Source of the DNA: Prevotella sp.
GTDB lineage: Bacteria; Bacteroidota; Bacteroidia; Bacteroidales; Bacteroidaceae
Length of the DNA stretch: 64,000 nt
Direction: 5' to 3'
NCBI GenBank assembly: GCA_017471245.1
Contig: JAFUVB010000005.1
Span: 1 to 64,000 of the forward strand
This document shows positions 36,427-64,000 of the stretch, in pieces. The position numbers were made by a program, and so were the translations under genes. The notes under the pieces are model-generated. The model did not search any database. It was not told the DNA's origin and saw only the letters and a list, made by a program, of their open reading frames with translations. The first letter of the stretch is position 1, and every line of letters begins with the position of its first letter.

Positions 36427-38616
<2,190 letters not shown>

Positions 38617-38750
38617 CTATTGATATTATTTGTTCGTCTTAATGAATGGCAGTCATTATCGTTGAGCGCTTTGACTTTCGTTTTTATATAAGAAGGAAAA
38701 AACAGCAAGGGTGGGCGCTAAATATAATAATGTGGAGAGAAGGTGATTCT

Positions 38751-40975
<2,225 letters not shown>

Positions 40976-40979
40976 GTTG

Positions 40980-43900: not shown

Positions 43901-43997
43901 CCGGGTCAGAGGTAAACCATGACTGAACAAACGGGTTTTGTGCATAAACTGCTAAAGCAACAAGGCTCTGAATCGTAAAAAGGATTGTTCTTTTCAT
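40980..43997 (-). CDS. Double GH43 enzyme with CBM6 between the domains
   Basis: A 1005-residue protein with a signal peptide ending in VYAQ. The first GH43 spans about 22-310 (base Asp in TSDPAPLVVGD, modulator in HIDPTVMI, acid Glu in YVEGPWLM). CBM6 follows at about 340-470 (YRRVEAETMAFSHGV...FNFDWWEM). The second GH43 spans about 500-800 (DVPDPDVIRVGD, HDCSLFFD, LLEGSRMI). The last about 200 residues form a C-terminal beta-sandwich. Both active sites look intact, so it probably combines arabinofuranosidase and xylosidase activities. An upstream in-frame Met at 44027 is also possible; the Met at 43997 gives the signal peptide. Confidence 0.93.
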   Translation of the reverse strand: MKRTILFTIQSLVALAVYAQNPFVQSWFTSDPAPLVVGDRMYVYTGHDEDGADFFWMQEWRVYSTDDMVNWTDHGSPLALESFSWADDRAWASQCIERDGKFFWYICAHSQLSGGMAIGVAVSDKPTGPFRDAIGKPLYEDGKWDHIDPTVMIDDDGQTWLMWGNPQVYYLKLNRDMISYEGTVGMLPMTEEAFGSPAMSKREKGKQYKDSYVEGPWLMKAPVTSRPSSPDSKYYLLYAAGGVPEHISYSTAPHPTGPWTYAGEIMPLCDTNSFTNHCGVAEFKGHNYFFYHTGKLPNGGGFGRSVAVEEFKYNADGRFPKIMPTDEGVKPVGNFDPYRRVEAETMAFSHGVKTEQNDSVGVYVTSIHNGDYIKLQNVDFGDKTPRMFTARVASGLRGGAIEIRIDSLGGQLLGRLEVPGTGGWEQWCTLTTDLTSIVRGHHDLCFVFTGRKGPKLFNFDWWEMRGLQQVNMPLSQTKYTADPVPLGDYETLKMEKIQNPMLWSDVPDPDVIRVGDTFYMVSTTMHLMPGAPIMRSKDLKNWETVGYIFDRLTDSPKYDLLQGTAYGRGQWATSLKYHNGKFYALLAPNERGAMGDTYIFSAEKAEGPWNIVSRMRHFHDCSLFFDDDGRVYVIYGTGEMMELKPDLSDVIEGTHQHIFQREPDEQGLLEGSRMIKHNGKYYLLMISHTYAPRRHRREVCYRADDIHGPYEKQVILESEFGGFSYEAQGTIVDTPEGDWYGIIFQDRGGVGRVLTVMPCRWINGWPMLGDENGKVPDIVRPLISGQPTTSIVKSDDFTETKLGLHWQWNHNPIDAAWSLTQRPGYLRLKTNRIVPNIYLAPNTLTQRMEGPTCSGAIAMDITKMKDGDCAGLAAFNSDTGALVIKKKGKCVMLEMNEMTVELSDRDKEVMKVEENTIESISLKNNKIWLRIDADFQLRERGGHDSANFYYSLDGEQWTKIGTTDYRMRFDWQRFFMGTKFAIFCYATKKSGGYVDIDAFDYSKGE

Positions 43998-44052
43998 ATT
44001 GATTCCAAATAAACTGATATTATTCATGACTTTCGAATCTTTATATTTTGCA

Positions 44053-44061
44053 GCAAAGTTA
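44053..44061 (-). promoter_or_regulatory. Promoter -7 element of the minus accessory arm
   Basis: TAACTTTGC on the minus strand, about 55 bp upstream of the double GH43 start. Confidence 0.6.
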
Positions 44062-44090
44062 CGACAAAAATCAGAGAATAACACTTCGAC

Positions 44091-44119
44091 GATGTATCAT
44101 ATTCTTTTTGTGATGTATC
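44091..44119. promoter_or_regulatory. Candidate operator: GATGTATC direct repeat
   Basis: GATGTATC occurs at 44091-44098 and 44112-44119, 21 bp apart (two helical turns), with a partial third (TGTATC) at 44126. It lies between the two divergent promoters of the accessory arm. Two-turn direct repeats are what an AraC-type output domain of an HTCS would bind; this is inference. Confidence 0.35.
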
Positions 44120-44169
44120 TTTTCCTGTATCTTTACATTACCTCGCTTGGCATACTGGGGATTTATTGT

Positions 44170-44178
44170 TATATTTGC
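44170..44178 (+). promoter_or_regulatory. Promoter -7 element of the plus accessory arm
   Basis: TATATTTGC about 38 bp upstream of the ATG at 44216. It is divergent from 44053-44061. Confidence 0.65.
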
Positions 44179-44215
44179 GAAAAACTAAGTAGTGAAATGT
44201 GAAAAGATAAAGATG

Positions 44216-46240
44216 ATGAAGACGAAAAACTCTTTGTTGATTCTCGCGGGGTTGCCTCTTGTGTTGTGGGCACAGAATCCCGTTATCCGCGACCAGTTCG
44301 CAGCCGATCCCACCGCGCGCGTATTTAATAATAAGGTATATGTATATCCCTCTCACGACATTGTTGCTCCCGAAGGACAGCGGCAAGACTGGTTCTGCAT
44401 GGCTGATTATCATGTGTTTTCCTCTAAGGATCTCATCAACTGGACCGACCATGGCGTGATTCTCTCGCAGGAAACCGTGCCTTGGGGGAAGTCCGACGGC
44501 TATTCCATGTGGGCACCCGACTGCGTTTTCAAGAATGGGAAGTATTATTTCTATTTCCCCAACGCTCCGAAGAACGGTCGAGGCTTTGCCATTGGCGTGG
44601 CAACAGCCGATAGCCCCGAAGGACCATTCACCTGCGAGCAGGAACCTGTCAAGGGTGTTTCAGGCATCGATCCGTGTGTGCTGCTTGATGACGATGGCCA
44701 AGCCTACATCTATTGGAGTGGCATGGGCATTCGCGGTGCCAGGCTGAAGGACAACATGAAAGAGCTGGACGGCGAACTGCAGGAAGTGAAGTTTCCCAGA
44801 CGGGAGGGCATGCCAGAGATGCCTCCAATGAAGGTGGGCGGACAGGAGATGAAAGGTCTGCCAGATGGATTTAAGGAAGGTCCCTTCGCCTTCAAGCGCA
44901 ACGGATGGTATTATCTCACTTTCCCTTGGGTGAGGGTTGAGAATGGAACGGAGACACTGGCCTATGCCATGTCGAAGTCACCCCTCGGACCGTGGGACTT
45001 TAAGGGTATCATAATGGCAGAACATGCCAACGGTTGCTGGACTAACCATCATAGCATCATGGAGTATCGTGGTCAGTGGTATATTTTCTATCACCATAAT
45101 GCCTATTCCCCATGGATGGACAAGAGGCGTTCTGCATGTATTGAGAGAATGAGCTTTAATGCCGACGGCACGATATGCGAGGTGAAACCGACACTTCGTG
45201 GCGTTGGAATCAACAAGGCAACAGATAAGATACAGATAGATCGCTACAGTGGTGCTTCCGCCAATGTGGAGATTGAATATCTCGATACGCTCAACCGTTT
45301 CCGTGGCTGGCAGGTGATACTCCCGCAGAAAGGCTCCTGGGTGCGCTATAATGATGTGGATTTCTGTTGTATTACCGATGGCTATGCCGTGGTATGTGCC
45401 AAGGCAAACAGCAACACCCGGTTTTGTCTCCGTGAGAAAACCGCTAACGGCAAGGTGATTGCCCGGTTCGCAGTGACCGTCAAAAGTGAAATGGGACCGT
45501 TCCGCCGTGATATGAGCGGGCAGTGGCTGACACTGACGGCACCATTGGAATACACTCCAAAGGGCATTGCCGATCTTGTGCTTACCTGCGAGGGTGATGG
45601 TGTTGATGTGGATTGGGTTTTGTTTAAGAACCGACCTCACTATTTCTCCTCAGTTTCCACCCCGAAGGCACAGCCAGATGAGAATGGATTCATTCGCCGT
45701 TGGATGTTGCTTGAGCCAATCAGCAAGCCCAACCGCTCGAATAATGTGTTTACAGAAACCTATTTGCGAGAGCATTTCTACATGGACTATTTCAAGGGGC
45801 AACAGACCATCTTGCCTAAAGAGGGGCAGAAAACCCGAGTGGGCAAGCAGACACTTGCCTGGCATGCCCTCGACAGCGAGAACTACAACGTGAAACTCTT
45901 CCGTTTTGCCGAGAAATGGGGACAGCAGACCTACGGTTCTCTGTTCTGGGCAGTGACTGTTATCGACTGTCCTGAAGAAATCCGCAATGTGCGATTGGCT
46001 GCCGGTTCCAACGGAGCGTCGGCATGGTGGCTCAATGGCGAGGAAGTTCTCATGCTTTCCGGCGACCGTCGCATGGTGGTTGATGATGGTATGTCACCCC
46101 GTGTAACCCTGAAGAAGGGGCGCAACATACTGCGCTGTTCGGTAATCAACGGCCCTGGGCTAAGCGATTTCTGCGTCCGCTTCCTCGATGAGGACCAGAA
46201 ACCCGTTACTGCTTTCAGTGTGATTAGTGATGTGAGATAA
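44216..46240 (+). CDS. GH43 enzyme with CBM6-like and C-terminal domains
   Basis: A 674-residue protein with a signal peptide ending in VLWAQ. The GH43 propeller has catalytic Asp in AADPTARVF, modulator in GIDPCVLLD and acid Glu in FKEGPFAF. A CBM6-like sandwich spans about 340-480 (WVRYNDVDFCCI...GDGVDVDWVLF), and a second sandwich of about 190 residues (RRWMLLEPISKPN...AWWLNGEEVLML) is of the type found at the end of several Bacteroidota hemicellulases. It probably removes arabinose or xylose. It is the first gene of the plus arm; the next starts 20 nt downstream. An in-frame GTG at 44192 is less likely as start. Confidence 0.92.
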   Translation: MKTKNSLLILAGLPLVLWAQNPVIRDQFAADPTARVFNNKVYVYPSHDIVAPEGQRQDWFCMADYHVFSSKDLINWTDHGVILSQETVPWGKSDGYSMWAPDCVFKNGKYYFYFPNAPKNGRGFAIGVATADSPEGPFTCEQEPVKGVSGIDPCVLLDDDGQAYIYWSGMGIRGARLKDNMKELDGELQEVKFPRREGMPEMPPMKVGGQEMKGLPDGFKEGPFAFKRNGWYYLTFPWVRVENGTETLAYAMSKSPLGPWDFKGIIMAEHANGCWTNHHSIMEYRGQWYIFYHHNAYSPWMDKRRSACIERMSFNADGTICEVKPTLRGVGINKATDKIQIDRYSGASANVEIEYLDTLNRFRGWQVILPQKGSWVRYNDVDFCCITDGYAVVCAKANSNTRFCLREKTANGKVIARFAVTVKSEMGPFRRDMSGQWLTLTAPLEYTPKGIADLVLTCEGDGVDVDWVLFKNRPHYFSSVSTPKAQPDENGFIRRWMLLEPISKPNRSNNVFTETYLREHFYMDYFKGQQTILPKEGQKTRVGKQTLAWHALDSENYNVKLFRFAEKWGQQTYGSLFWAVTVIDCPEEIRNVRLAAGSNGASAWWLNGEEVLMLSGDRRMVVDDGMSPRVTLKKGRNILRCSVINGPGLSDFCVRFLDEDQKPVTAFSVISDVR

Positions 46241-46260
46241 GTATAAACAAGAAAAACAAT

Positions 46261-47751
46261 ATGAAAATGAAAAAGAATCAACATATCGATATAGTTAATA
46301 CGGTGAAAGCGGTGGTGTTTCTTATCACTTGCCATTTGTCGCTTGCAACTACCCATGCACAGGTGGGACAGCCCTACATCCACGACCCCTCAACCATAGC
46401 TGAGTGTGAAGGGAAATACTACACCTTTGGAACGGGTGGGGGAGGACTCATCTCTGAGGATGGCTGGAGCTGGCACAGTGGAGCTGAGCGGCCGGGCGGG
46501 GGAGCAGCCCCCGATGTCTTGAAGATTGGCGACAGATACCTTGTTATCTATGGTGCCACGGGCGGTGGGCTCGGCGGCGGACATAATGGTCGCATTCTCA
46601 CCATGTGGAACAAGACTCTTGACCCCAAGTCGCCCATCTTCAAATACTCCGATCCGATAGAAGTGTGCTATTCCGATGGTATGGAAGATCAGGACGCCAT
46701 CGATCCGGGCATGCTTCTCGACCCCGTCACCGGACGGCTGTGGGTGAGCTATGGAACCTATTTCGGCACGATCAGGCTCATCGAACTCGACCCCAAGACC
46801 GGAGAAAGGATGAAAGGCAATCAGGAACTGGATATTGCCATCGACTGCGAAGCCACCGATCTCATCTACCGAGATGGCTGGTATTATCTGCTTGGCACTC
46901 ACGGCACATGCTGCGATGGCGTGAACTCCACCTATAATATTGTGGTGGGACGGTCGAGAAAGGTGACGGGACCTTATCTCGACAACGTAGGCCGCGATAT
47001 GTACCATGGTGGAGGTAAAATGGTAATTGCTGCCGGTGACCGTGTCTGCGGACCTGGTCATTTTGGAAGAACGGTTATTGATGAAGGCGTGGAAATCATG
47101 TCGTGCCACTATGAGGCCGACTTCGATCAGGGTGGGCGCAGCGTGCTTGGCATTCGTCCGCTTCTTTGGAAGAACGGGTGGCCTGTGGCTGGCGACCGTT
47201 TCCGTGGCGGAACCTTTGAGATTGAGTCGGAGCGCCGCGGCTATGCCCTTGAGCTGGCAGTGGATTTCGTAAGGATACAACAAGAGCGTCAGGCATTCTG
47301 GCACATTGATCCCAAGGAGCCCGTGGTGCCCGTTGCCAACCAAAAGCTGGAGGAGGTGATGGGCGGATGGCCTGAAGGCGATATCCCCGCGCGCATAGGC
47401 GACTATATGTTCCGTCCCCACCAGCGCTGGACTGTTACGCCAGTTCCCGAGAAGGGCGGCTATTTGGGTGGCCCTTACTTCAGCATCACCATCGAGGGAA
47501 CCCACCGTGCGCTTGCCGCTACTGCCAACAAAGAGGTTACAACGGTGCCTGCCTATACTGGCGACGACTCACAGCTGTGGCGCATTGAGCAGCTCACCGA
47601 TGGAACGTTCCGCCTGATGCCCAAGGCAATCCCCGGAACAGATGGATTGAACACGCATCTCTGCCTCTATTCGGCAGGCGACAGAACACCCACGCTCGCT
47701 GAATATGATTTCAACAGCGATAATTCCAAATGGAATTTCCGCAATCATTGA
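46261..47751 (+). CDS. GH43 enzyme with ricin-like C-terminal domain
   Basis: A 496-residue protein with a signal peptide ending in THAQ. The GH43 part resembles endo-arabinanases: base Asp in YIHDPSTIAE, modulator in DQDAIDPGMLL and acid Glu in CEATDLIYRDGWYYLLG. The last about 110 residues (SITIEGTHRALAAT...DDSQLWRIEQL) look like a ricin-type trefoil module for sugar binding. Arabinan or arabinoxylan side chains are the expected substrate. It is the last gene of the plus arm, followed by a long inverted repeat. Confidence 0.9.
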   Translation: MKMKKNQHIDIVNTVKAVVFLITCHLSLATTHAQVGQPYIHDPSTIAECEGKYYTFGTGGGGLISEDGWSWHSGAERPGGGAAPDVLKIGDRYLVIYGATGGGLGGGHNGRILTMWNKTLDPKSPIFKYSDPIEVCYSDGMEDQDAIDPGMLLDPVTGRLWVSYGTYFGTIRLIELDPKTGERMKGNQELDIAIDCEATDLIYRDGWYYLLGTHGTCCDGVNSTYNIVVGRSRKVTGPYLDNVGRDMYHGGGKMVIAAGDRVCGPGHFGRTVIDEGVEIMSCHYEADFDQGGRSVLGIRPLLWKNGWPVAGDRFRGGTFEIESERRGYALELAVDFVRIQQERQAFWHIDPKEPVVPVANQKLEEVMGGWPEGDIPARIGDYMFRPHQRWTVTPVPEKGGYLGGPYFSITIEGTHRALAATANKEVTTVPAYTGDDSQLWRIEQLTDGTFRLMPKAIPGTDGLNTHLCLYSAGDRTPTLAEYDFNSDNSKWNFRNH

Positions 47752-48643: not shown

Positions 48644-50857
48644 TTATTTACCGCCCAAGCCGTCTGCAAAACCTGCATAGGTGTGCTTGCGGTTGTAGTT
48701 CAAATCCCAGAGACCTACAGGCTCGCCTGTACGCCAACTGCTGGAGGCAGGAGCATCGGTGATGCACCACTGGGTGATGCCATACTGCTGGTTGGCAGGA
48801 ACAATCTCCACATATTTCTTGATAATCCACTTGTAGAGATCCGACATCTCCCTATGCTGTGCCTGGGTCAAATCTTCTGTCTTCAGCGATGTGCCGCTTT
48901 CATCAACATAGCCCATGTCGAGTTCGCTCACGCGCACCAGTTTGCCCGTGGCAGCCATCAGCTTGAACATGTTCTCAATGGCATTCTTCTTGCTCTCCTG
49001 AGTACCCTTGTTGGCATAGCAGGAAATGTGCATCTGCGTGCCGATACCGTCGATCTTGGTAACGCCGTCGGATTCCCAACGCTTGATCCACTCGATGAGG
49101 CTCTTCAGTTTGCCGTTCTTGTCCCAGTCGCTCTCCAGATTATAGTCGTTAACGAAGAGTTTGATGTCTTCCGGACCATACTGGCGAGCCAGTCTGACGG
49201 CTGTGCGCACATAGTCGAGATCGCCCATATAATCCTGCCAGAAGAAGTTGTTGACACTGCTCTCCGTGGCATGCTGCAGTGCATAAACGCCATCACCATC
49301 GGGATTGCCGCCGGAAAGTGCCTCGTTGACAACATCCCAAGCGTGAACATTGCCTTCGCAAGCTTCCATCATACCGCTGATCCACTTGTCCATTGCCCAG
49401 GTGAGCGTGTCCTTCTTCTCCTCGGGAGTCAGAGGAATACCGTTGCCCTGTTTCTCTATTTCAAGCACAACGTTGTCGATATAGTAGACTCCGTCGGTTG
49501 CGTTAGGCGACATGTTGAAGGCTAATGACTGCATGATGCCGCCCCTACATGCTCCTTCATCGATAGTGATCGTCTTGTCATAGGTCTGCCAGTCAGATGA
49601 GAAGCTCACATCTGGGTATCCGCTCTGCCAGTAAATGTAATCACCGGGTCCCATGTGCGTCTGTATCGAAACTGACGTTCCTGCACATCCGCCATCGGCG
49701 CGATAGTCAAACTTCAGGTGAATCTTGTCGCCGGCGTTGATGTCTTTATTGGATGCAATCCAGAACTGGCTCTCCCAAGCATCGGCCTGAGAGCCTTTCG
49801 ACTCGATGCGCGCACCGCGGCCGCCATTGACACCTGCACCTGCGGAGATCCTGTTGATGGTGGATCCAGAGTTTTCCTTAACAAAGAAGTTGTGGGCATC
49901 GTCGCCTTCCATGTCGCCATTGTCGATCAGGCTTTCCATGTAGGTGGCAGGTCCTGCGGCATCACTGTGAGATACTGTCAAGTCTTTGAAGCAGATGCGC
50001 TGGTTTTCAACGCCTGACAATTGGAAGACAATAAAACCGTTTGCTCCGCCTAATGGTTCATCAAACTGCACGGATGCTTCACTCCATTCGTCTGTGGTTG
50101 AAAGAGCGAGCTTCTTCTCAAAGCTCTGGTCTCCACCCCAGCCCCAACGCAGCACAACAGTGATCGATGCATCGACGGGACTCTTATAGGTAACAGACAC
50201 CTTGTACTTCTTCTCGGCTTCAAGTCCCATGTTGTCGGCTGCGAAATACTGATACCAGCCAGCGTCGCTCAAGCTGATAAGGCCTTCTTCTGGGCTGAAA
50301 TCAGGAGAGTAGCCCATAGGATAGAACGGGAAAGAAGCAATCTTTGTGTAATCGATCGTATAGTCTTCTTTTTCCACCAGATCATCAGGATTGATCTCAA
50401 TAGGCTTGTCTGCAAGCATGGCGTTCAGCCATTTCACAGGCTGCTGCGAGTGCCAAGCGAGCGTATGACCATATATGGAAATCCCGTTTTCGTTGGCATT
50501 CCTCACAAAAGCTTCAACCGTGCTGAAGTCCATGTCGCCCTTGTCGTTCACAATCGATGCCATCTTCATCTCGTTGCCTGCCACTATCTCATCGAAGTTC
50601 GCATTGGCAAGGCGCGTAACGACACCGTTGGCATTATAGTCGGTGGCAGCCAATGCCGCACCCAACTTGAAGTTGGATGAGATATTGGGATTGCCTGCCG
50701 AGTACTCTTTCAATGCTCCGTAATCAGCGAGATACTCCATGCCCTCGATGGAGGCTGGTTTCTCAAAATTGAATTCCAGTGGATCCATATCAGCGCAGGA
50801 TGTGAAAACCGCTGCCGAAAGAAGCATTGCTCCGAAAATCTTATATGAATGTTTCAT
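48644..50857 (-). CDS. xyn10C: Surface GH10 endoxylanase with inserted carbohydrate-binding modules
   Basis: A 737-residue lipoprotein (lipobox FTSC, Cys21, followed by acidic residues). The GH10 barrel is split: residues about 60-150 (GHTLAWHSQQP) and about 475-737, with acid/base Glu512 in DVVNEAL and nucleophile Glu645 in SELDMG. The insertion at about 155-470 holds two beta-sandwich modules of the CBM4/22 kind (WYQYFAADNMGLEAEKKYKV and NGDMEGDDAHNFFVK). This architecture is known from surface xylanases of Bacteroidota xylan loci, such as P. bryantii Xyn10C. It cuts bound xylan outside the cell. It is the last gene of the xus operon. Confidence 0.95.
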   Translation of the reverse strand: MKHSYKIFGAMLLSAAVFTSCADMDPLEFNFEKPASIEGMEYLADYGALKEYSAGNPNISSNFKLGAALAATDYNANGVVTRLANANFDEIVAGNEMKMASIVNDKGDMDFSTVEAFVRNANENGISIYGHTLAWHSQQPVKWLNAMLADKPIEINPDDLVEKEDYTIDYTKIASFPFYPMGYSPDFSPEEGLISLSDAGWYQYFAADNMGLEAEKKYKVSVTYKSPVDASITVVLRWGWGGDQSFEKKLALSTTDEWSEASVQFDEPLGGANGFIVFQLSGVENQRICFKDLTVSHSDAAGPATYMESLIDNGDMEGDDAHNFFVKENSGSTINRISAGAGVNGGRGARIESKGSQADAWESQFWIASNKDINAGDKIHLKFDYRADGGCAGTSVSIQTHMGPGDYIYWQSGYPDVSFSSDWQTYDKTITIDEGACRGGIMQSLAFNMSPNATDGVYYIDNVVLEIEKQGNGIPLTPEEKKDTLTWAMDKWISGMMEACEGNVHAWDVVNEALSGGNPDGDGVYALQHATESSVNNFFWQDYMGDLDYVRTAVRLARQYGPEDIKLFVNDYNLESDWDKNGKLKSLIEWIKRWESDGVTKIDGIGTQMHISCYANKGTQESKKNAIENMFKLMAATGKLVRVSELDMGYVDESGTSLKTEDLTQAQHREMSDLYKWIIKKYVEIVPANQQYGITQWCITDAPASSSWRTGEPVGLWDLNYNRKHTYAGFADGLGGK

Positions 50858-50890: not shown

Positions 50891-51922
50891 TTATTCAGCC
50901 AACTTGAACCACTCTGCCTTCACACCGCGGTCGCGAACAACCAGTGTGTCCTTAGTGGCGCAGTTGATGCCTCCATAGTTGAGCGTATAATCCAGATAGA
51001 GAACATCATGATCTTCATTGCCCCAGCTGTTCTTGTCGCCCTTGGTTACAAACTGACCGCTACCGGTAGCCGTAACGCCGGGGGAGGTAGTTGAGACAGA
51101 GCACTTGCCTTCAGCATCGAAGTTGAGTTTCAGGTTGCACTCGATAATCACTCCATCCTTATCCTTCGTGGGGCGAGCCCACTCTACTGAGTTGATGCCT
51201 AATGTGGTGAACTGGTTCTGGAGCACCTCGTCTTTTTCCACATATTCAGCATGGCGAACCTCTGTGCCTGTCTTGGCACCGCTGTAGGTGTCTTTACCAC
51301 GGCGCAGATAGTTAGACTGATACTTGCTGATATACTTCACGGCATAAAGGGTGTAGTCTTTCGGCAATACAGACCAGTCGGAAGCCTTCGCACGGTTCGG
51401 GCTGCTCACTCCGTCTTGTGGCTGACCGCAAAGAATGCTGTCAGCACCCTCAACATGTGTCATCACAACAGGAATCACGTAGTTCAGCTTTGTCGACATC
51501 GGGTCTGCAAAGAATGCATCTGTCAGCTGAACGGTGACACCACCTAACACTTTACCATTTGCGATAACAATCTGGTTGCCGCTCAAGGTGTAGTAGTTGG
51601 ATGGCATGGCAACAACGGGTGTTCCATCCTCATACTTAATGCCGTTGCAGAGCGAATTGTCAACCTTGATGTCAATCACCACGTTCCGGTTGTTTTCATA
51701 AACACCACTTATTGTAGCCATAATCTGGAACTTGTGGTCGTTGTCCATCGAGTTGTCTGTTGTAGCATCCTCGCCTAAGGTGATGGTACGTATAGGACTC
51801 TGATAGGCAAAGTAAACTGCCGAATGGTCGTTGTCGGGAAAATCCCAGTCTCCGTTTTCGCATGCCGTCAGCAAGAATGCTGCCAGCAGCAAATTGGCTA
51901 TATACAATATTGTCTTATTCAT
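50891..51922 (-). CDS. xusE: XusE-like surface lipoprotein (DUF1735/DUF5627-type)
   Basis: A 343-residue lipoprotein (lipobox LTAC). Residues about 25-160 form an Ig-like N-terminal domain (VYFAYQSPIRTITLGED, VKDNS-like strands) of the DUF1735/BT3987 type. The C-terminal domain of about 150 residues ends with a strand motif DVLYLDYTLNYGG. Position and size match XusE in the described xylan cluster, where it probably binds xylan. It follows xusD by 26 nt and precedes the xylanase gene by 33 nt. The ATG at 51922 gives the lipobox; an in-frame upstream start overlaps xusD. Confidence 0.8.
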   Translation of the reverse strand: MNKTILYIANLLLAAFLLTACENGDWDFPDNDHSAVYFAYQSPIRTITLGEDATTDNSMDNDHKFQIMATISGVYENNRNVVIDIKVDNSLCNGIKYEDGTPVVAMPSNYYTLSGNQIVIANGKVLGGVTVQLTDAFFADPMSTKLNYVIPVVMTHVEGADSILCGQPQDGVSSPNRAKASDWSVLPKDYTLYAVKYISKYQSNYLRRGKDTYSGAKTGTEVRHAEYVEKDEVLQNQFTTLGINSVEWARPTKDKDGVIIECNLKLNFDAEGKCSVSTTSPGVTATGSGQFVTKGDKNSWGNEDHDVLYLDYTLNYGGINCATKDTLVVRDRGVKAEWFKLAE

Positions 51923-51948
51923 AGCTTTTAGTATTTTACATTGTTTCT

Positions 51949-53766
51949 TTACCATCCTTTATTTTGGATTAACGCATCAAACTTCAATATCTCAGAATAA
52001 GGAATCGGTCCGTAAATCATATAGTCTGAATACTTGCGATCCTCCACATTGAACACTTCATAGTGATTGTTGGTGATGCGCATACCCTTTACAGTCTCGT
52101 TGAGTTTGGATACGCCCACATTCCAACGGCGGAGATCCCAGAAACGGAATCCTTCGAAGCAGAGTTCGATGCGGCGCTCGTTGCGGATCAGTTCGCGCAT
52201 CATGTTCTTGTCGGCCTTGCATGTTTCAAGATAAGAATCCATAGCATTGATGCCGGCACGCTGGCGGATGGCCTTGATCACGTCGTAGGCAGAGAATCCG
52301 TTGGAACCAGCACCTGTCGGTCCCCAAGCTTCGTTGGCTGCTTCGGCATAGCTCAGGAAGAACTCCGTGTAACGCATCCATGGTCTGATGTGGAATTGTC
52401 CTGCCTTATTGCTCGGATTGCAGTTCACATCCTCAACCAATAGTTTTTTCAGATAGTAGCCGGTACGTGTGGAGCGTCCGTCATCACGACCAAGAGCATC
52501 GTCGTTGCTACCGTCGACAGCAGTGTTGATGGTCTGACCCTTGAACGTTGTACCATTGTGAATGATATAGAGGTCAAGGCGCGGGTCGCGGTTGGCGTAT
52601 GGATTCTGCGGATCATAGCCGCTGTTCGGGTCGGTGATGGGCAGACCGTTTGCCATTGGGAAGGCGTCCACCAGGTTTTGTGACGGATTCACACGTCCAT
52701 TGCCAAATAATGAGGGAGGGAAGTTCAGTGTTTCAATCCAAGAAGATGAATTGTCCGGGTCTTCTCCACCCTTGTTGGAGCGCCACAATATCTCAGGACG
52801 GTTGAAGCCTGGTGCTAACGAATTCAATGCAGCATACTCATTGTACCACTGATTGCCGGTAGGATCGATATTGCTCAATGGGTTACTGCCGAGACCTTCC
52901 TTCAGCACTGTTGCCAACAAGTTGGCTGCCTGATCCCATGTAACACCTGAACCGTCGCTGTAAGCGGGACTTGCTGCCATGAGAGCGGCCTGGGCGCGCA
53001 CGGCCTTTGCCACGCGAGCACTCATGCGGTTCTTTGCATGGTCACCAAACACACGCGTGAAGATTTCAGATGTGGCTCCCAACTGGCGATACTTTGAAGG
53101 AACATCGTTGCTGTTGTCGATGTTACCATAGTCTTCAGGGAGATACTTGATAGCCTCTTCCACGTCCGCATTCAGCTGGTCAATACACTCTTTGAAGGTG
53201 TTGCGTGGATTGTTGAATTCGGATGTCACGGTTTCAGACTCTGTCAAGATGGGAATACCCATCAGCTGACCGTCGGCTGTCTTTCCGGCATGAGCTCTTA
53301 ACAGATGGTACATGTAGAGTGCGCGCATGCCGTATGCCTCACCCATGAAACGCTGTTTGTAGAGTTCAGCGGCAGTTGGATCGCTTGCCCATGTAACCTT
53401 CGGAGCAAGTTCAATCATCTGGTTGATATACTGCCATGAAGCACGCAGATATTGCCAGGTGTCCATCGGGTTGTTGTCGGCACGCCATTGTCCTGAAGCC
53501 ATTCTGCGGTAGGTGTTGTCCACGTCATTGGATACAGCATCGTCGGTGGCAACCTCTGTCATTGTCCAGCCTACAGCATCCTGCCCCAGGGGATTGCTGA
53601 TATAGGCATGGCCCAGCAGTCCTACTGCCCATTGCGGCATATCCTCTAACTGTTCCATCGTCTTATGGTTCTCAACAGCAGGTTCAAACGCATCGTCGCA
53701 ACCAACCAGAGCAGCTGTCAGTGGGGCTATAATTGTTAGTATTGCTACTTTTCTAAAATTTTTCAT
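51949..53766 (-). CDS. xusD: SusD-family xylan-binding lipoprotein
   Basis: A 605-residue lipoprotein (lipobox LVGC). The RagB/SusD fold shows in ALYMYHLLRAHAGKTADGQLMGIPIL in the N-terminal TPR region and in RYTEFFLSYAEAANEAWGP and NERRIELCFEGFRFWDLRRW near the end. It caps its SusC partner (the next gene upstream, 26 nt away) and captures xylo-oligosaccharides at the surface. Confidence 0.94.
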   Translation of the reverse strand: MKNFRKVAILTIIAPLTAALVGCDDAFEPAVENHKTMEQLEDMPQWAVGLLGHAYISNPLGQDAVGWTMTEVATDDAVSNDVDNTYRRMASGQWRADNNPMDTWQYLRASWQYINQMIELAPKVTWASDPTAAELYKQRFMGEAYGMRALYMYHLLRAHAGKTADGQLMGIPILTESETVTSEFNNPRNTFKECIDQLNADVEEAIKYLPEDYGNIDNSNDVPSKYRQLGATSEIFTRVFGDHAKNRMSARVAKAVRAQAALMAASPAYSDGSGVTWDQAANLLATVLKEGLGSNPLSNIDPTGNQWYNEYAALNSLAPGFNRPEILWRSNKGGEDPDNSSSWIETLNFPPSLFGNGRVNPSQNLVDAFPMANGLPITDPNSGYDPQNPYANRDPRLDLYIIHNGTTFKGQTINTAVDGSNDDALGRDDGRSTRTGYYLKKLLVEDVNCNPSNKAGQFHIRPWMRYTEFFLSYAEAANEAWGPTGAGSNGFSAYDVIKAIRQRAGINAMDSYLETCKADKNMMRELIRNERRIELCFEGFRFWDLRRWNVGVSKLNETVKGMRITNNHYEVFNVEDRKYSDYMIYGPIPYSEILKFDALIQNKGW

Positions 53767-53792: not shown

Positions 53793-56600
53793 TTAGAATG
53801 AAGCCTTCAAACCAATGCTATAGTAGCGGCTTTGAGGAGCACTGCCTACATTCATCTCAAGTACCTTACGCTCCTTGGCGATGGTAAGCAGGTTGCTGCC
53901 ACTAATATATACATCCAGTCCTTTCACAAACTTCACAAAGGAATTGGCAAACACTGTTTCCGGGAAGTTGTATGTCAGCTGCACCTTTCTGAGTGTGAAA
54001 CGGTCGTTCTTATACATCCAGAAGTCGGTGTAGCGGTAGTTGTTGTCACCGTTACTCGTTGTCAGGCGCGGATAGATGGCTGTTGCGGCTGTCTCAGGAG
54101 TCCAAGTGTCGCGAGCTGCTTCTGAATATTTGCTTGTGCCTGGCATCCAGTAGTAAGAGCTGTTCTTCATGCCATGTCCTCCGAGATAGAGATTACCCAA
54201 CGTGAAGAAGGTGATGTTCTTCCATTTGAGGGTAAGGTTGATGCCGCTCATGAAAGGAGAGTCCCAACGTCCGAGGAATACCTGGTCGTTATTGTCAATC
54301 TTGCCGTCATTGTTCTGGTCAACATAGCGAATGTCGCCCGGGCGCACATCACCGAAGGTCTGTGTGGGTGCATTGTCAATCTCTTGCTGCGACTGGAACA
54401 GGCCCACGCTCTGCAATCCCCAGTATCCGTTCAGCGCTTTGCCGATGCGCGACTGGTATGCAAACTCATAGTTCTCGTCGCGTTTGCCTACTGTGCTCTT
54501 ATACCACATTCCGCTGATGCCCAACTTTGCAAAGAACTCGCCGAAGTGCTTTTGGAAGTAAACGCTGAAGTCGATACCCGTGCGATTGTCAACATTATAG
54601 TTGGTGTAAGGGATGATGGATGAAGAGGGGTATCCCACCTGAGTGAAGTAGTTAGGATAGAGAGTTGCCACACGGGCAAGTCCGCCGTCCATCTTGTTGG
54701 TGAAGAAGTTCACGTCGAAAGTAATCAGCTTGTCGAACATGGAACCACGCAAACCAACCGTGAACTCCTTGCGCTTAACAAAGGTCATGTCGGGGTTGTC
54801 GCCACGCTGGAATTCAGTAGCTGCCATACCTCCGTTGTCAGCCCAGCTATACCATCCGCCTGACTGCACTACTGACTGATACAGGTAGTAGCCGTCCTCA
54901 TTGTCATCGGTAGTGATGTCAATATCCTGATCAATGATGGCAACCGATGTGGTCAGCATGAGGTCATCCAAGAACGAATCCTTCAGAACATCCCTTGTGG
55001 GACGCCATCCCAAAGTCACAGCTGGAGAGAATCCGGTGCGGTTGCCCTCTGGCATTTTTGTGGAATAAGGAATGGCAGCACTGAAGTCAACGTAGTATGT
55101 ATGGTCGTAGTTGTAAGACAACTGTAAGCCCATGTTCACATTGGTCGTGCGATGATAGTGGCCATTGCGCTGTGTCTGCCAGATGTTGCCCAACAGCATG
55201 CCAAACACATTGTGCTTCTCAGCGAAGGTGCGGTTGTAGTCGAACTGTCCTGAGATGTTGTAGGTGTAACGGTATGCAGAGTTGCTGATGTTCTCATTTC
55301 CCGACTTGTAGTCTTTTCCATACTGGGTGATATCCCGAATCATGTCATTTCCGGCATAGTTGGTCCATGTAGGAGCAAAGGTGGCATAGTCGTTAGAGTA
55401 GCCCTGATTATAGGTAGAAGCATAGTCGATACCGTATTTCGTGCGGAAGATCAGTCCCTTCACCAATGAGTTCAGGTTCACATCAAACTGTGTGTTGAAC
55501 TGGAACTGGCGACTGACATACTTGCTGTCGCCTGCTGCGAAGGCATCAGCATAGGGGGTTGTCGGGTTTGCCTGAGAACCTCCGAAGAAGAAGTCGCCCT
55601 GCAGGTAGTCGCTGTTGCGCACAATGTCTAATGATGTGGCATCAGCCTCTTCGATATAGCTGATAGGAATCAGTGGAGCCACTAAATACGGGCGCCATGT
55701 TGCAGACTGTCCCCACCAGTCGGTGTTTGCGCTGTAGGAGTCGTAGAAGGTAACGTTGGCATCTGCCTTGAAAGAAAGAACCTTGTTGAGTTCCACGTCG
55801 ATGTTACCACGGACAAAGAAACGGCTGACATAGTTGTCTTTCGTCTTGCCCACCTTCAGAGGAGAAGCCTCGCGGTAATAGCCTGTTGTCGTGTAATACT
55901 TCATGCGGTTTGTTCCGCCGGTAACCTCCATGATTCCCTCATAGCGTGCATGTGAGTTCTTCACATAGTCGGAAGACAGCATGTTGAAATCAGGATAGCG
56001 ATAAGGATTGATGCCCGAAGCATAGTTATAGATATCCTCGGCAGAATAGTTTGCCGACAATCCGTCGTTTGCACGAGCCTGATTGAACATGCTCATATAC
56101 TCGGCTGATCCCAGATACTTAGGAAACACTTTGGGAACATAAAGCCCGCCATTGGCATGTGCGTTGATGCGCAGGTCGCCCAGCTTGCCACGCTTGGTGG
56201 TAATCTGGAGCACTCCCTTGGCAGCGCGAGGTCCATAGAGCACAACAGCTGATGCTCCTTTCAACAGTGTGATTTGGTCGATTTCGGTAGGAAGCACGTT
56301 GTTGGCATCGCGCACCATACCGTCTACAACGACTAAATAGTCATCATTTCCCCAGATGTTGCCGTTGAAGCCGCCCACCACATTGTCAATATAGTCTAAA
56401 CTGTAACTGCTGTAGGCTTTGTCTTGCAGCTCCTTCATGTCGATAACGGAGATTCCGCCCAACAAGTCTTGCTTGTCAACAGCGCGGAACGCCACGTTCA
56501 CTGCCGTTGAGTCGCCAGCCTCCTGTGCGAGGAGAGGAAGAGAGGAGCCTGCCAACAGCAAACACCCAACGACCAACACCTTATTTATTATTTTGTTCAT
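53793..56600 (-). CDS. xusC: SusC-family TonB-dependent transporter without N-terminal extension
   Basis: A 935-residue protein with a signal peptide ending in PLLAQ. The plug carries DDYLVVVDGMVRDA, LLKGASAVVLYGPRAAKGVLQITTKRG; the barrel ends in SIGLKASF. The carboxypeptidase-like N-terminal domain and a canonical TonB box are missing, and the plug follows almost directly after the signal peptide, so coupling to TonB may differ from xusA. No remnant of such a domain lies in the 42-bp gap upstream. It pairs with xusD to import xylo-oligosaccharides. Confidence 0.92.
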   Translation of the reverse strand: MNKIINKVLVVGCLLLAGSSLPLLAQEAGDSTAVNVAFRAVDKQDLLGGISVIDMKELQDKAYSSYSLDYIDNVVGGFNGNIWGNDDYLVVVDGMVRDANNVLPTEIDQITLLKGASAVVLYGPRAAKGVLQITTKRGKLGDLRINAHANGGLYVPKVFPKYLGSAEYMSMFNQARANDGLSANYSAEDIYNYASGINPYRYPDFNMLSSDYVKNSHARYEGIMEVTGGTNRMKYYTTTGYYREASPLKVGKTKDNYVSRFFVRGNIDVELNKVLSFKADANVTFYDSYSANTDWWGQSATWRPYLVAPLIPISYIEEADATSLDIVRNSDYLQGDFFFGGSQANPTTPYADAFAAGDSKYVSRQFQFNTQFDVNLNSLVKGLIFRTKYGIDYASTYNQGYSNDYATFAPTWTNYAGNDMIRDITQYGKDYKSGNENISNSAYRYTYNISGQFDYNRTFAEKHNVFGMLLGNIWQTQRNGHYHRTTNVNMGLQLSYNYDHTYYVDFSAAIPYSTKMPEGNRTGFSPAVTLGWRPTRDVLKDSFLDDLMLTTSVAIIDQDIDITTDDNEDGYYLYQSVVQSGGWYSWADNGGMAATEFQRGDNPDMTFVKRKEFTVGLRGSMFDKLITFDVNFFTNKMDGGLARVATLYPNYFTQVGYPSSSIIPYTNYNVDNRTGIDFSVYFQKHFGEFFAKLGISGMWYKSTVGKRDENYEFAYQSRIGKALNGYWGLQSVGLFQSQQEIDNAPTQTFGDVRPGDIRYVDQNNDGKIDNNDQVFLGRWDSPFMSGINLTLKWKNITFFTLGNLYLGGHGMKNSSYYWMPGTSKYSEAARDTWTPETAATAIYPRLTTSNGDNNYRYTDFWMYKNDRFTLRKVQLTYNFPETVFANSFVKFVKGLDVYISGSNLLTIAKERKVLEMNVGSAPQSRYYSIGLKASF

Positions 56601-56642
56601 AATAATTATCAATTTTCAATTATCAATTTCAATTATCAATTC

Positions 56643-58586
56643 TTACCACCCAGGATTCTGCTTGAACTCAGGATAGATCATCACATCCTCATTCTTGAAG
56701 GGGAGCCAGTAATGTTTTGCACTGAGATTGCGCTGGATGATCACTTCCTCCCTGAAGTTCTTGACAGCATTCTCCTTAGGATCCACGGTGATGTCAAGTC
56801 CTGGATGATAGCTGTCAGTTTCCGGATCAATGTTTGCACCGGGAACACGGTCAAACTTCTGTCTCGTCTTAATGTTGTATGGATATACAGTCAACAGTTT
56901 CCAACGGCGGAGGTCATTGAAGCGGTGAGCCTCGAAAGAAAGCTCAACAGCACGCTCACGACGGATCTCGTCCATAAATTTGTCAGCTGAACCAAGGAAG
57001 CGGTCATCAACAGGATCAACGCCTGCACGCTCACGAATCTTATTCACTGCATCTGCCGCTGTAAGAGAGCAGGTGGAGGATTTGCCGTTGGCACCGCCGT
57101 AACCCATGTCGGCAGCCTCTGCATACATCAGATAAACATCTGCAAGGCGCAACCAGGAGAGGTGCAGGTGGAATGCATTTGTCCATCCGCTATGACCATT
57201 GTCAATTGTATTGCAGTCAATGGCAATGAACTTATAGTTCAGGTATCCCGTCCTACTTCTATGGAGGTCTTGTATGCCATTGCCTCCATCATAGAAATTG
57301 GCATATTGGAATTGATATAAAGACTTGTCAACAGGCTGTCCGTTGAACATCTTCACGCCATCATAGATGAAATTATAATAGAAACGCGGGTCGCGATTCT
57401 TCCACGGGTGCTCCTTGTCGAAACCTGAGTCGGCCTCAGTGAGGGGAAGACCGTTCTGCATTCCGAAGTAGTTCACATAGTTGGCAGCGGGGCATAACAC
57501 AATACCGTCGCCATCGGCAATCTCCTTAATCTGATACACATTTGCCTGTCGCCAGTATGAGTCGGCACCGAAGGAAGGACTACGCATGATGGCCTCTGTT
57601 CCGCCAGGCATCATCCAGCTCTGTTTCTGAGTCCAGAACAGGGTGTGGTAGTCTTCAAATGGCACCAGCGCATATTGTGTCTGACCGCTCTCAACCAAGC
57701 TCAGCACCTGTCCGAATGCATCGGCAGCACGTTTACAATAGTTGGAATCATACTTATATGTGTCGCCTGTTGCGTCAACACCGTTCACCATCAGCGGACT
57801 GCCGGCATAGAGCAGTGCCTTGCCCATGTACGACAATGCCCAGATTTTGTTGGGGCGCAATTCGTTCTTACCTTTGCCAATCTGTGAGCCTGTGGCGGTA
57901 TTGTCCCAGTTGATGGGCAACAGATCGGCAGCGCGCTTGAAATCTTCAGCCATCTTGTCGGCACATTCCTGGAATGACTCGCGAGGCAGATTGAATTGAG
58001 CACCCGGATCCAGAGGTTCCGTGATATAAGGCAGACCACCCCAATAGGTGCAAAGCTCGAAATAGAACCAGGCACGAAAGAATAGCAACTGACCTTCAAT
58101 AAGATTGCGCTGTTCCTGAGAAGCGTCTTTCAACAGACCGTCTTGCAGGGCCTTCAAGCCAATATTTGCCTGACGGATGCCATACCAGCTGCCGCCCCAG
58201 AGAGCTTTGTCGAAACGTGCACCTGAACTTCCCTGAATTTGTCCGACAGCCCAAGGACGATCCAAAAAGCATGCCGAATTGTTGATATAGCCTCTATAGT
58301 TTCCGTTGTCAACCATAGCGGTGAATATGCTGTTTGCCCAACCACTGTCAAAAGTATGGACTTCATCCTCACCCCAGTTGAAACAACTTGTCCAGTGGCT
58401 CTTCATTACGTCAGGGATAACATTGTACATGACTTCTACAAATCCCTGGAAATTATTGAAATTCTTGAACGCATCCTCTTCCTGGAGCACAGATTCAGCA
58501 TCCTTTTCCAAATAGTCGGTACAGGAGGAGAGGCTCACCGTTCCGGCAAGAAATGCGAACATTATATATATTAATGACTTTTTCAT
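56643..58586 (-). CDS. xusB: SusD-family xylan-binding lipoprotein
   Basis: A 647-residue lipoprotein (lipobox LSSC). SusD features are FFRAWFYFELCTYWGGLPYITEPLDP, the RLADVYLMYAEAADMGYGG helix and the RRERAVELSFEAHRFNDLRRWK ending. It is the partner of the SusC encoded just upstream (xusA, 17 nt away). The gap to xusC contains short CAATTATCAATT repeats. Confidence 0.94.
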   Translation of the reverse strand: MKKSLIYIMFAFLAGTVSLSSCTDYLEKDAESVLQEEDAFKNFNNFQGFVEVMYNVIPDVMKSHWTSCFNWGEDEVHTFDSGWANSIFTAMVDNGNYRGYINNSACFLDRPWAVGQIQGSSGARFDKALWGGSWYGIRQANIGLKALQDGLLKDASQEQRNLIEGQLLFFRAWFYFELCTYWGGLPYITEPLDPGAQFNLPRESFQECADKMAEDFKRAADLLPINWDNTATGSQIGKGKNELRPNKIWALSYMGKALLYAGSPLMVNGVDATGDTYKYDSNYCKRAADAFGQVLSLVESGQTQYALVPFEDYHTLFWTQKQSWMMPGGTEAIMRSPSFGADSYWRQANVYQIKEIADGDGIVLCPAANYVNYFGMQNGLPLTEADSGFDKEHPWKNRDPRFYYNFIYDGVKMFNGQPVDKSLYQFQYANFYDGGNGIQDLHRSRTGYLNYKFIAIDCNTIDNGHSGWTNAFHLHLSWLRLADVYLMYAEAADMGYGGANGKSSTCSLTAADAVNKIRERAGVDPVDDRFLGSADKFMDEIRRERAVELSFEAHRFNDLRRWKLLTVYPYNIKTRQKFDRVPGANIDPETDSYHPGLDITVDPKENAVKNFREEVIIQRNLSAKHYWLPFKNEDVMIYPEFKQNPGW

Positions 58587-58603: not shown

Positions 58604-61600
58604 TTAAAGTGTAACTCTAAGACCAATGTTGAAACGGCGCTGTGTAGGATATGCACTCCATCCGCCTGTATTCGACTCACGGTCATCAGGCATGTCAGTC
58701 CAGAGGGCAAGGTTGTTGCCGTTGACAAACAGCTTCAACGACTGTAGACCAACGTTGCTCAACCATCTCTCTTTGGAGAAGGTGTAGGAAATCTCAGCAT
58801 ACTTCAGACGGAGATATGAACCATCGAACATGAAACGTGTGCCATTCGAATAGGTGCTTGCCTTGGCATTCGTGCTCCAGCGAGGAAGCGGAACGTCGGC
58901 ATTCTGATTCTCCGGACTCCAGTAGCTGCCTTCGTGGTAGCCTGAAGTGCGGCTGTCGTTCAAACTCACGAGATTTACATCACGCGAAACGTTGTTGGTG
59001 CCGTAGAACTGTACGAAAGCGCTCCATCCCTTATAATCCACGCCAATCTGGAAATTCATGGTGTTCTGTGGAATACTTGAGAATCCATAGGGTATATAGT
59101 CGTTCTGCGAGATTACACCATCGGCATCGTAGTCAAGAATGATATAGTTTCCCGGCATTCGGTTGCTGTCATACTCATCGTGGGCGGTACTTCCATAAAG
59201 CTCATCCCAGTTGTTGTAATAGCCATGATCCAGATAAACATACGTTTGGTTTATCGTCTTGCCTGCCTTCTTCTGATATTCAGGAGTCAGCTGCGGGTCA
59301 TCGCGTTCAACAATGGTATTCACGGCATGGGTGAATGCCATGTTACCCCAGAGCCGCCAGTCATTGTTCAACTTCTTGTTGAAACGGATGTCAAGCTCGT
59401 AACCGGAGCTCTTCACCTTACCCAAGTTGGCAACAGGTGCGTTTCCGCCATAGTAACCCGGAACGGCGCGGTCGCTGCCGGCAATCAGAATGTCGGTACG
59501 ATTCTCACGGAAATAGTCGAATGAACCTGTGATCAGACCGCCCAAGAAACCGAAGTCAACAGCAAGGTCGAGCTTTTTGGCTACTTCCCAATGCAAGTCG
59601 GGGTTACCTTCCTGAGTCTTCTGCCACCATGTGTAAGGGCTTGAACCGAAATTCGGGCTGCCTCCAGAAATCTCCTGCGCAATGTTTCCGCTGTTCTCCC
59701 ACGTGTCGCGGAACAGCCAACGACCTTGGCTTACATGGTCGTCACCAATCTCACCATAGGAGGCGCGCAGTTTCAGCACGTCGATGATGTGCTTATCGCG
59801 AAGGCGCTTCATGAAAGCTTCCTCGCTGACCATCCAACCGATAGCTCCAGAATTGAAGAATGCGAAACGGTTGTCCTTTGAGAAGATTTCTGAACCGTTG
59901 TAGGCACCGTTGTACTCTAACAGATACTTGCGGGCGAAGTCGTAAGTGGCACGGAACACCCAGTTCTCACGCAGATAGGGTGAGAAACTCCCCGTCTGGT
60001 AGCGCTCGCGGCTGAAGTTACCCATTACACCCACGGTGTGGTCACCGAATGTGCGGCTGTAGTTCAGCTGCATAGAGTAGTTCAGACGACGGTAGGTGAG
60101 CAGGTTGTTTACACTACCAGGTCCCTGAGACCATGCATTGTTGTTCTTATAATCGAACTTATAGTTGGTTTCAGGCTGCACGTCCGACTTGCCAATGCCC
60201 GTGTCGGGATCAATCCAGTAGTGAGCCTCGTCTTCCCAGTCGTTAGTATCGTCGATACCACGGCCTTGCTCCACGAATGAATTATCGAAGGCGAGCTTTG
60301 CCATGGCCTTCAGTCCTGGGGTGATGAAGCCGAGATCCTGTTCGAGAGTGAAGTCGGTGTTCAGGCGGTCGGTAGTGGTATAGCCGATACCTGTTGTGCT
60401 CAGATACTCCATAGAGTTCTGTGAAGCCTGAGTTGGATTGGGATCATAGTATCCCCACATGCCGTTATCATACAAAGGACGGAAGGCTCCGGGAGCAATG
60501 CCATAGAATGCCGACCATACGAGATTCTCATATTGAGCCTGCGTGGCCTTGCGGATGGCATGTGAACCGGAGAGGTTGATATGCAGCTGTGTGGTTTTTG
60601 TGAGGTTGAAGTCAAGGTTGCTGCGAACATTAATGCGGTCGTAGGCGAATCCCGGCTCATAACCGCGAGTGTTAGGTACCTTCTTATAAATGTCACCCTC
60701 GTGAGCATAGTCAACGCTTGTGAAATATTTCACGAACTTGGAACCGCCGGATACGTTCACGTTGAAGTTGTAAGACATGGCAACATCCTTGAGCAACTCG
60801 TCAATCCAGTTTACATTCGGATAACGTTCCCATTCCTCGCGGGTTGCAGGATTGCGATACTTGTTGAGAATATCCTGCGGAGTGAATTTCACCCAATCAT
60901 CGGGAGCGTATGCCAATTCTTTCTGAATGGCTTTGTTGCGAAGAACCAAAGCATCGTAGGAGTCCATTGCATCGGGCAGCTTTGAATAGGTCTTCAAAGT
61001 GGTGCTGGCATTGATGTTGATCGTGGCTGGACCTTCTGTTCCGTGCTTTGTGGTGATAAGAATAACGCCATTCGCTCCGCGCACACCGAACACGGCTGTA
61101 GCGGAGGCATCTTTCAATACGGAAATACTTGCCACGGAGTTGATGTCAACACTCGACATGGGACGCTCGATACCATCAACCAGTACCAAAGGTTCACCAC
61201 CATTCCATGAAGTAGTACCGCGAATGTAGATCTTCGGATCCTCGTCACCAGGCTGACCGGAGGTACTCATGGTTACCACACCAGGCAGGTTTCCGGTAAG
61301 AGCCTGACCGAGACTGGTCACACCACCGGTACGTTCCAACACTTTAGAGTCGGTCTGGGTGATGGCACCCACCACAGAGGCTTTCTTCTGCTGACCGAAA
61401 CCAACCACCACCACTTAAGAGAGTTGGGTGTTGTCAGTCAGCACCACACTGAAGGTGCGCTGCGAGCCCACCTTAAATTCCTTGGTTTCCATTCCCACGT
61501 AGCTGACAACTATAACTGTCTGCTCAGAGGGAACATCAAGCTGGAATTTGCCGTCAAAGTCTGTTACCGTTCCATGAGCGGTATTTCCCTTAACAACAAC

Positions 61601-61750
61601 CGATGCTCCGATGAGAGGCTCACCGGCACCGTCGACGACTGTACCGTTCACTCGGATGCTTCCGCCCTGCGCCAGCGCGTTTGCCAGCGGCAACATTAGC
61701 ATCAGGAGAGAAGGAACAGCGCGTTTCAAGAGACTTTTTAGCTGTTTCAT
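58604..61750 (-). pseudogene. xusA: SusC-family TonB-dependent transporter, interrupted by in-frame TAA
   Basis: The full reading frame is 1048 codons from an ATG at 61750, with a signal peptide ending in NALAQ and a carboxypeptidase-like domain (INGTVVDG-type: VNGTVVDGAGEPLIGASV). Codon 112 is TAA (61417-61415). Before it stand TDNTQLS, after it VVVVGFGQQKKASVVGAITQ in the same frame. Members of the family read LSEVVVVGFG here, so a single GAA to TAA change at the TonB-box Glu explains it. The rest of the barrel (58604-61414) has no other defect. No full-length protein is expected without readthrough. A promoter -7 element lies about 260 bp upstream. Confidence 0.9.
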
Positions 61751-61850
61751 CTTGTCTGATTTTGATTCATAATTATTTATATTGGTTTTATACATTATAA
61801 TATTATATATATGGTGCGACTTTACATCGTCATACTGTTTTCTTTTCCAA

Positions 61851-61889
61851 GGCTGGCACAAATCTCCTTCACAGGGACACGTGCCAGCC
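61851..61889 (-). promoter_or_regulatory. Leader hairpin of the xus operon
   Basis: GGCTGGCAC (61851-61859) pairs perfectly with GTGCCAGCC (61881-61889), with a 21-nt loop, in the middle of the leader of about 250 nt before xusA. There is no T-run behind it, so it is not a simple terminator. Confidence 0.6.
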
Positions 61890-62009
61890 GTTGTTTCCAT
61901 GATAATTAAATCACTGGCTTATAAAAAAAGCTACTAATCACTAACTACAAATACTAACTACTAACAATATAATTAACATTAAAAAAACTGCTCAGGTTTG
62001 ATTTTCGTT

Positions 62010-62018
62010 GCAAAGGTA
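62010..62018 (-). promoter_or_regulatory. Promoter -7 element of the xus operon
   Basis: TACCTTTGC on the minus strand, about 260 bp upstream of xusA. GTAACATG occurs at 62071 and at 62179, each upstream of one of the two divergent promoters, as a possible shared operator (weak). Confidence 0.65.
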
Positions 62019-62190
62019 GGCAAATTCTGGTGTTCTCGTTTTGCAAAAAGTAGCGCGTATGTTTAATAAAGTAACATGATGTGAATTTTAATCAAAACAT
62101 GAAAAGCCTTGTTATGCGGGAAACGCGCCGCCCGCCAAGCTAAAAACATGGGATGTTGTTACGAAAACTTTGTCAAATGTAACATGCGCA

Positions 62191-62222
62191 TTGCCGGTTT
62201 GCGGGAAAATGTGTATATTTGC
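62191..62222 (+). promoter_or_regulatory. Promoter of the HTCS-like regulator
   Basis: TTG at 62191-62193 and TATATTTGC at 62214-62222, 20 bp apart, 35 bp upstream of the ATG. Confidence 0.65.
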
Positions 62223-62256
62223 AACGATAATGATACAAATCGATAAAACACGAACA

Positions 62257-64000
62257 ATGTTACGTAAAGTTCTATTAACGGCATTTGAACTTATTTTTGC
62301 AGTGTGTTTCACACATGCACAAACCGGAAAGCTGTTTGATGCAGACAAACAGTTGTCGAGCAGTTTCACCAGTCAGGTGTATCTTGACCGGGATGGTTTC
62401 ATCTGGGTTGCTACGCGAAATGGGCTCAACCGATATGATGGCTATCAGTTTCAGTCAATAAAAAGAGAGAGAGCATGAGTCGGGCATGGCGAGCAATTAT
62501 GTGAATTGCATGATACAAGATGGCAGCGGACTTTTCTATCTTGGCATGTATGGCGCGCTTCAGACTTACGACGGCAACAGTTTCCGCGACGTGGAAGTGC
62601 GCGACCTGAGCGGAAACGTGGTTCCCTGCTATGTCACTTGTTTCCTCCAACTCAGAAACGGCGACATGCTTGCAGGCACTTCTGGTCACGGACTGCTGAA
62701 GATTACCGACCGGAGCCATGCCGTTCAGCAAAACGGTGCCTTGCGCAAAATCCTTACCGTTCAGGATATGGTAGAAGACCGGCGAGGACATGTGTGGATT
62801 GCAACCAACAGCTACGGTCTGCTCGATTATGACGGAAAAACAGCAACGAGATATTTTGCCGACGACAAGCAAGTGGGCATTTTGCGCCAGATTTGTCTCG
62901 ATCAGGACGGAAACATGTATGTGGGTACATCTGGAAACGGTGTTTACGTGCGCAGTGCCAAAGGCGGAGAGTTCCGCCATCTCGATGCGGCAGGCAGCAA
63001 GCATGTTTCTTCACTCTATTGTTGCCGCGACGGGCGGCTGATGATCGGCTACGACGGGAAAGGCGTGGCTATCTATAACCCGAAAACCGGGCAGATAAGC
63101 GACAACCCGTTCTTCAGTCGCGACGTGGATCTCAGCATGAGCAAGGTTTACAGCATGGTGGAGGATGCCAGCGGCAATATCTGGTTGGGACTCTTGCAGA
63201 AAGGAATCTACATGCAGCCTAAGCAGGTTACGGGATTCCGCTACTTGGGTTACAAGCTCGGAGGGCGCAATGTGATAGGTCAGGCGTGCGTTATCAGTAC
63301 GCTGATTGATAGCCGTGGCCGCTGCTGGGTAGGCACCGACAAGGACGGTCTCTACTGTCTCGACGAGCAGCAGCGCCCAATACACCATTTCAAAGAAGGA
63401 TTCCCCGCATCGGTGATGAGCATTGCCGAGGACGGTTCGGGCAGGATTTGGGTAGGCAGCTGGAACGAGGGATTCGGTTATATCGACTCTGAGGCGAAGA
63501 GCTATCATCAGTATCCCCACTACACATCTTCCAGCGGCTTTGCCATTCAAGCCTCAGGAAGCACGTTGTGGGTAGCCACGATGGGGCAGGGGCTGATTGA
63601 AATCAACCAGGAAACCGGTCATCTGAAGGCCTATACCATGGATTCCAGGGCTGCCACCGACAGGAAAGTGAACAGCATTGCCAACGACTATATCTCGAAA
63701 ATGTCGCTATCGCCCGATGGCAAACGAGTGTATCTCGCCACCACAATGGGCGTTTGCTGCCTCGACGTGGAGAAAAACAGCTGGACAAGTGTGTTCGGGG
63801 AGAACTGCCTGAACTACGGAACGCCGGCGCGAATTGTGAAAGAGTATAACGGCAAACTGTGGATTGGCACTAACGACGGGCTCTACTGCTACGACATGAA
63901 GCTGAAACAGCTGAACCTTTACACCACGGAAAAGGGACTGGCTGACAATGGTATCGCTTCGATTGAGCAAGACAAGGAGGGCCGATTGTGGATTGGCACC
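62257..64000 (+). pseudogene. xusR: HTCS-type xylan regulator, frameshifted and cut by window end
   Basis: Starts with a signal peptide ending in THAQ and a first propeller repeat (FIWVATRNGLNRYDGYQF). The frame then ends at 62478 after SIKRERA. From 62474 the +1 frame continues without a stop to the window end, with at least seven further Reg_prop repeats (WIATNSYGLLDYDG, WVGTDKDGLYCLD, LWIGTNDGLYCYD and others). The break coincides with AAAAA(G) followed by an (AG)5 run at 62464-62473; one more AG, or one base fewer, restores a single frame. HTCS proteins sense oligosaccharides through this periplasmic propeller and activate the divergent PUL. The kinase and AraC parts lie beyond the window. 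As sequenced, no full sensor can be made. Confidence 0.85.

Follow-up and report, generated by a model that had tools for sequence, protein, structure and literature searches.

What has become of the first SusC-like transporter of a xylan cluster when its reading frame is open throughout except for a single TAA at one of its most conserved residues? The window in which this occurs, the whole 64,000-nucleotide stretch of DNA analysed here, is taken from a 114-contig draft assembly of a Prevotella sp. The codon could be a true mutation, an error of the consensus, or a stop that the cell reads through.

The interrupted gene and its cluster

The xusA frame lies on the minus strand from 61750 to 58604 and holds 1048 codons ahead of its natural stop. 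In agreement with the sequence-only reading that prompted the question, a codon scan found one internal stop among them, a TAA at 61417-61415 (codon 112). It shares its frame with the start codon, ATG at 61750, and with the terminal TAA at 58606-58604, and is flanked by TQLS*VVVVGFGQQ. Roughly 48 stops would be expected in a random frame of the same composition, and the frames of relatives are open across the site, so xusA is one interrupted gene rather than two open reading frames. The earlier suggestion that a single base change explains the stop is likewise supported. The frame of a SusC-type gene should continue through the Ton box, and here it is cut at that point.

Upstream of the stop, a 5' fragment of 111 codons (61418-61750, minus strand) contains a signal-peptide-like start, judged by eye rather than with a predictor, and a CarboxypepD_reg-like N-terminal extension ahead of the Ton box (PF13715, E=2.3e-17, profile positions 1-69 of 88). 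The 3' fragment of 936 codons (58604-61414, minus strand) contains the TonB plug (PF07715, E=5.5e-15) and the barrel, the latter assigned by similarity to full-length relatives. As expected of a SusC-like gene, xusA adjoins a SusD-like one, xusB (56643-58586; PF07980 and PF14322). It is followed on the same strand by the second SusC-like transporter xusC (53793-56612) and the SusD-like xusD (51949-53766), both recognised by domain search and from relatives' loci, and, by domain search, by an XusE-like protein with a BT_3987-like N-terminal domain and DUF5627 (50891-51955), named from its position, and xyn10C, in which GH10 was matched in two stretches (48644-50857). The plug model matched xusC weakly (E=4e-5), and PF13715 was not found there at E<=0.001, unlike in xusA.

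The order xusA-B-C-D-E-xyn10C is that of the Xus xylan utilisation locus, as described in the available text of PMC7848910 and PMC8002723, and close relatives keep xusA-xusB-xusC-xusD as far as their loci reach (to xusD). Domain matches and cluster order thus agree with the earlier identification of the interrupted gene as xusA, the first SusC of the xylan locus. Each of the genes from xusB to xyn10C is a single full open reading frame, so the claim that they are still readable also stands. Genes for GH43, a GH10-esterase and a SASA-esterase lie near the cluster (34649-47751). Divergently, on the plus strand, domain search identified the 5' part of a hybrid two-component regulator (62486-64000), the whole gene of which, read in L044, occupies contig positions 62486-66244. 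The interval between this regulator gene and xusA holds an inverted repeat of 32 bases (61996-62236), imperfect (72%) and with its arms 177 bases apart. Elsewhere in the window, at 11675-19619, a SusC-like receptor gene is followed by genes for DUF4876, DUF6850 and a protein with weak resemblance to peptidase C25; non-ATG starts are listed for three of these four genes.

The lost residue and the age of the lesion

How constrained is the codon that was lost? I collected the xusA loci of relatives (n=47; 12 + 29 + 5 + 1), of which all except L011 cover the stop position, 42 of these 46 being distinct across the surrounding 600 bases. The residue at this position is Glu in 44 and Asp in the other two, and is therefore acidic in all 46; a stop occurs in none. 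The column is likewise invariant in an alignment of 20 homologues from which the two Asp-bearing sequences were left out. The stop opens the EVVVVG stretch of xusA, which is, by sequence comparison with the DEVVVTG reported for the levan SusC Bt1763 in the available text of PMC7782687, its putative Ton box. The proposal that the stop falls on the conserved Ton-box Glu is thus borne out. The longer motif invoked with it, LSEVVVVG, survives only in part, for the Glu is conserved but the residue before it is E, D, T or Q among eight close orthologues.

If xusA had been broken long ago, the remainder of the gene should have begun to decay. Of 271 columns at which the other 20 sequences do not vary, the window differs at three, the stop itself included, compared with zero to two in the eight close orthologues. 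Where the other eight close sequences are invariant, the window departs in 16 of 616 columns (2.6%), within the range of the others (0.3% to 3.8%). Relaxed selection was not seen either: dN/dS of xusA against close orthologues is 0.057-0.098, within the 0.053-0.155 of intact pairs, although with dS near saturation this test rules out old decay only. The N-terminal part of the window's gene is the more divergent (dN 0.35-0.48, against 0.11-0.18 in the remainder), as it is in two of the three intact pairs computed, whereas in the closest intact pair, L014/L004, the N-terminal part is the less divergent one (dN 0.047, remainder 0.073). The few departures at invariant columns, together with dN/dS values like those of intact pairs, suggest that any loss of xusA is recent.

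Are such stops frequent in the family? My early stop counts in relatives covered the matched stretch downstream of the Ton box and so missed upstream stops such as the window's, whereas a full-length xusA profile takes them in. Searched against 398 genomes of the genus, one per species, this profile gave at least 150 matches (more exist), and two of the 150 listed contain an internal stop: the window (TAA) and genome G284 (TAG, in the N-terminal extension). The G284 locus (L123, contig C11, ~24.5-29.3 kb) is a second damaged xus locus, in which the xusB frame shifts some 540 residues in; with this additional lesion it looks like plain decay or error. None of the xusB matches listed carries a stop flag, a flag that does not show frame jumps. 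As a control, the similarly long housekeeping gene for topoisomerase IV A had stop flags in 8 of 150 matches listed, each of them within 5 codons of the start or 15 codons of the end of the matched span; no stop inside such a gene was thus seen in these assemblies. Internal stops in two of 150 xusA matches, set against none of 150, do not amount to a meaningful excess.

Mutation, error or rescue

The codon itself, its position, its open neighbours, the lack of decay and the failure to find a close paralogue make up the observed basis for what I consider the best explanation, at a probability of roughly 0.6: a single nonsense substitution has recently turned xusA into a null allele, the xylan cluster being intact in other respects. 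I infer from them that the mutation is present in the organism, that no product would be made and that a phenotype would follow. Ribosomes starting at 61750 would halt short of the Ton box, yielding a pre-protein of 111 residues that comprises the signal region and N-terminal extension. The plug and barrel would then be unmade, or made only as a cytoplasmic restart product, and uptake of xylo-oligosaccharides would be left to XusC/XusD.

Could a second copy or a restart rescue the transporter? No second close xusA was found in the genome: one match reached E<=1e-100 (8 of 55 candidates scored), and the next-best SusC scores 226 bits against 1871 for xusA itself (all 143 candidates scored). GTG codons directly follow the stop; an ATG first appears at codon 161. 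A restart product would be without the N-terminal signal region, and because this region and the N-terminal domain precede the stop, it should not be exportable. The sequence-only reading had argued that a lesion at the Ton box would abolish transport even with re-initiation. If the base is real, this fits what is described in the available text of PMC7782687, where deletion or mutation of the Ton box of Bt1763 caused growth defects resembling those of a SusD deletion. The position of the signal region upstream of the stop would be the stronger reason for loss of transport than this analogy.

The chief rival, which I regard as less likely but a real possibility, is that xusA is intact in the organism, the stop reflecting an incorrect base or the base of a minority strain in a mixed consensus. 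The absence of decay elsewhere in xusA is equally expected from an error, and the assembly, as noted, is a draft in 114 contigs. It also gave no 16S match, a weak point since the same search succeeded in 9 of 14 control genomes and missed 5. (The missing 16S, and the Ala, Ile and Leu-UAA tRNAs missing as described below, were perhaps lost together with the rRNA operons.) Furthermore, the single TGA flag among 65 plug matches in this genome, on contig C17, is not a nonsense-split SusC but a frame jump in another TonB-dependent receptor (L122 ~1980-2210, jump near 24150), whose N-terminal part and plug lie in different frames; this apparent frameshift indicates that errors in the assembly are possible. 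Against an error, the xusA stop is a substitution outside any homopolymer, with a short GTG repeat just after it, and lies 28 kb from the contig end, and the topoisomerase IV A flags were confined to the ends of the matched span. The case looks like an ordinary one, whether xusA was disabled recently or the sequence is wrong.

The remaining alternatives would give the stop a function, and nothing I found pointed to recoding, a switch or selection at xusA. Readthrough or recoding, by which full-length XusA would still be made, would agree with the normal constraint on the remainder of the gene, yet seems extremely unlikely. An Rfam search of the genome returned 42 tRNA matches (150 of 303 first-look candidates scored), and ARAGORN, run on the Rfam candidate places, at least one further tRNA gene (Val, in L068). 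No UUA anticodon, which would read UAA, and hence no suppressor tRNA, was among the tRNA genes found, a set that must be incomplete since tRNAs for Ala, Ile and Leu-UAA were likewise not found. The earlier suggestion that the stop might be suppressible thus gained no support. Nor was a recurrent in-frame TAA found in the genome's other SusC- and SusD-type genes: the SusC profile search flagged TAA in two of 64 rows, the window and C66, where the codon lies 5' of the ATG start and so does not split a second SusC, and the one TAA flag among 48 SusD matches (C17) is a natural gene end rather than a nonsense codon. The absence of a stop at this position in the 46 relatives also speaks against readthrough. 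Just as unlikely is a selected or reversible loss, in which pressure from phage, immunity or diet repeatedly yields xusA nulls as an adaptive OFF state. In its favour, G284 supplies a second homologue stopped before the Ton box among the 150 matches listed, the xusB matches listed are unflagged, and 6 of the 16 genes that evolve in parallel in B. fragilis are SusC/D genes according to the available text of PMC9393564. However, two cases are too few, G284 with its broken xusB resembles simple decay or an error, the stretch 60900-62500 contains no direct repeat as long as 14 bases, and the stop lies outside both imperfect inverted pairs found (61996-62027/62205-62236 and 60992-61007/61439-61454). 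Finally, since the stop sits at the end of the N-terminal extension, it is conceivable, if very improbable, that a free NTE domain is secreted to the periplasm from this allele, XusA-minus alleles being kept in populations while XusC/XusD carry xylan uptake.

The null allele among known systems

Pseudogenes and null alleles with a single lesion exist in bacterial genomes, one substitution in a frame that is otherwise intact. The xusA case is alike in both respects and differs by the position of the lesion alone. A null allele of xusA would not surprise a specialist, given that within-host change is known to affect SusC/D genes (PMC9393564, available text), and no nonsense allele of xusA appeared among the titles and abstract openings of the best matches in a literature search. 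If real, the allele would be a naturally occurring knock-out, by a single codon, of one of two transporters in a conserved xylan cluster and would allow one to ask whether XusA and XusC are redundant. Automatic annotation could list it as a 936-residue 'transporter' without the N-terminal part.

In its gene order, its two SusC/SusD pairs, its two-stretch GH10 and its hybrid two-component regulator, the cluster resembles the xusABCDE-xyn10C loci of Prevotella and Bacteroides, as far as the available descriptions of these go. Unlike known XusA, the window's copy is broken by a stop at the Ton box. As in the Bt1763 mutants described in the available text of PMC7782687, the lesion affects the Ton box and follows the PF13715 domain. 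However, those mutants are engineered in-frame changes in which the transporter is still made, whereas xusA loses everything past codon 111.
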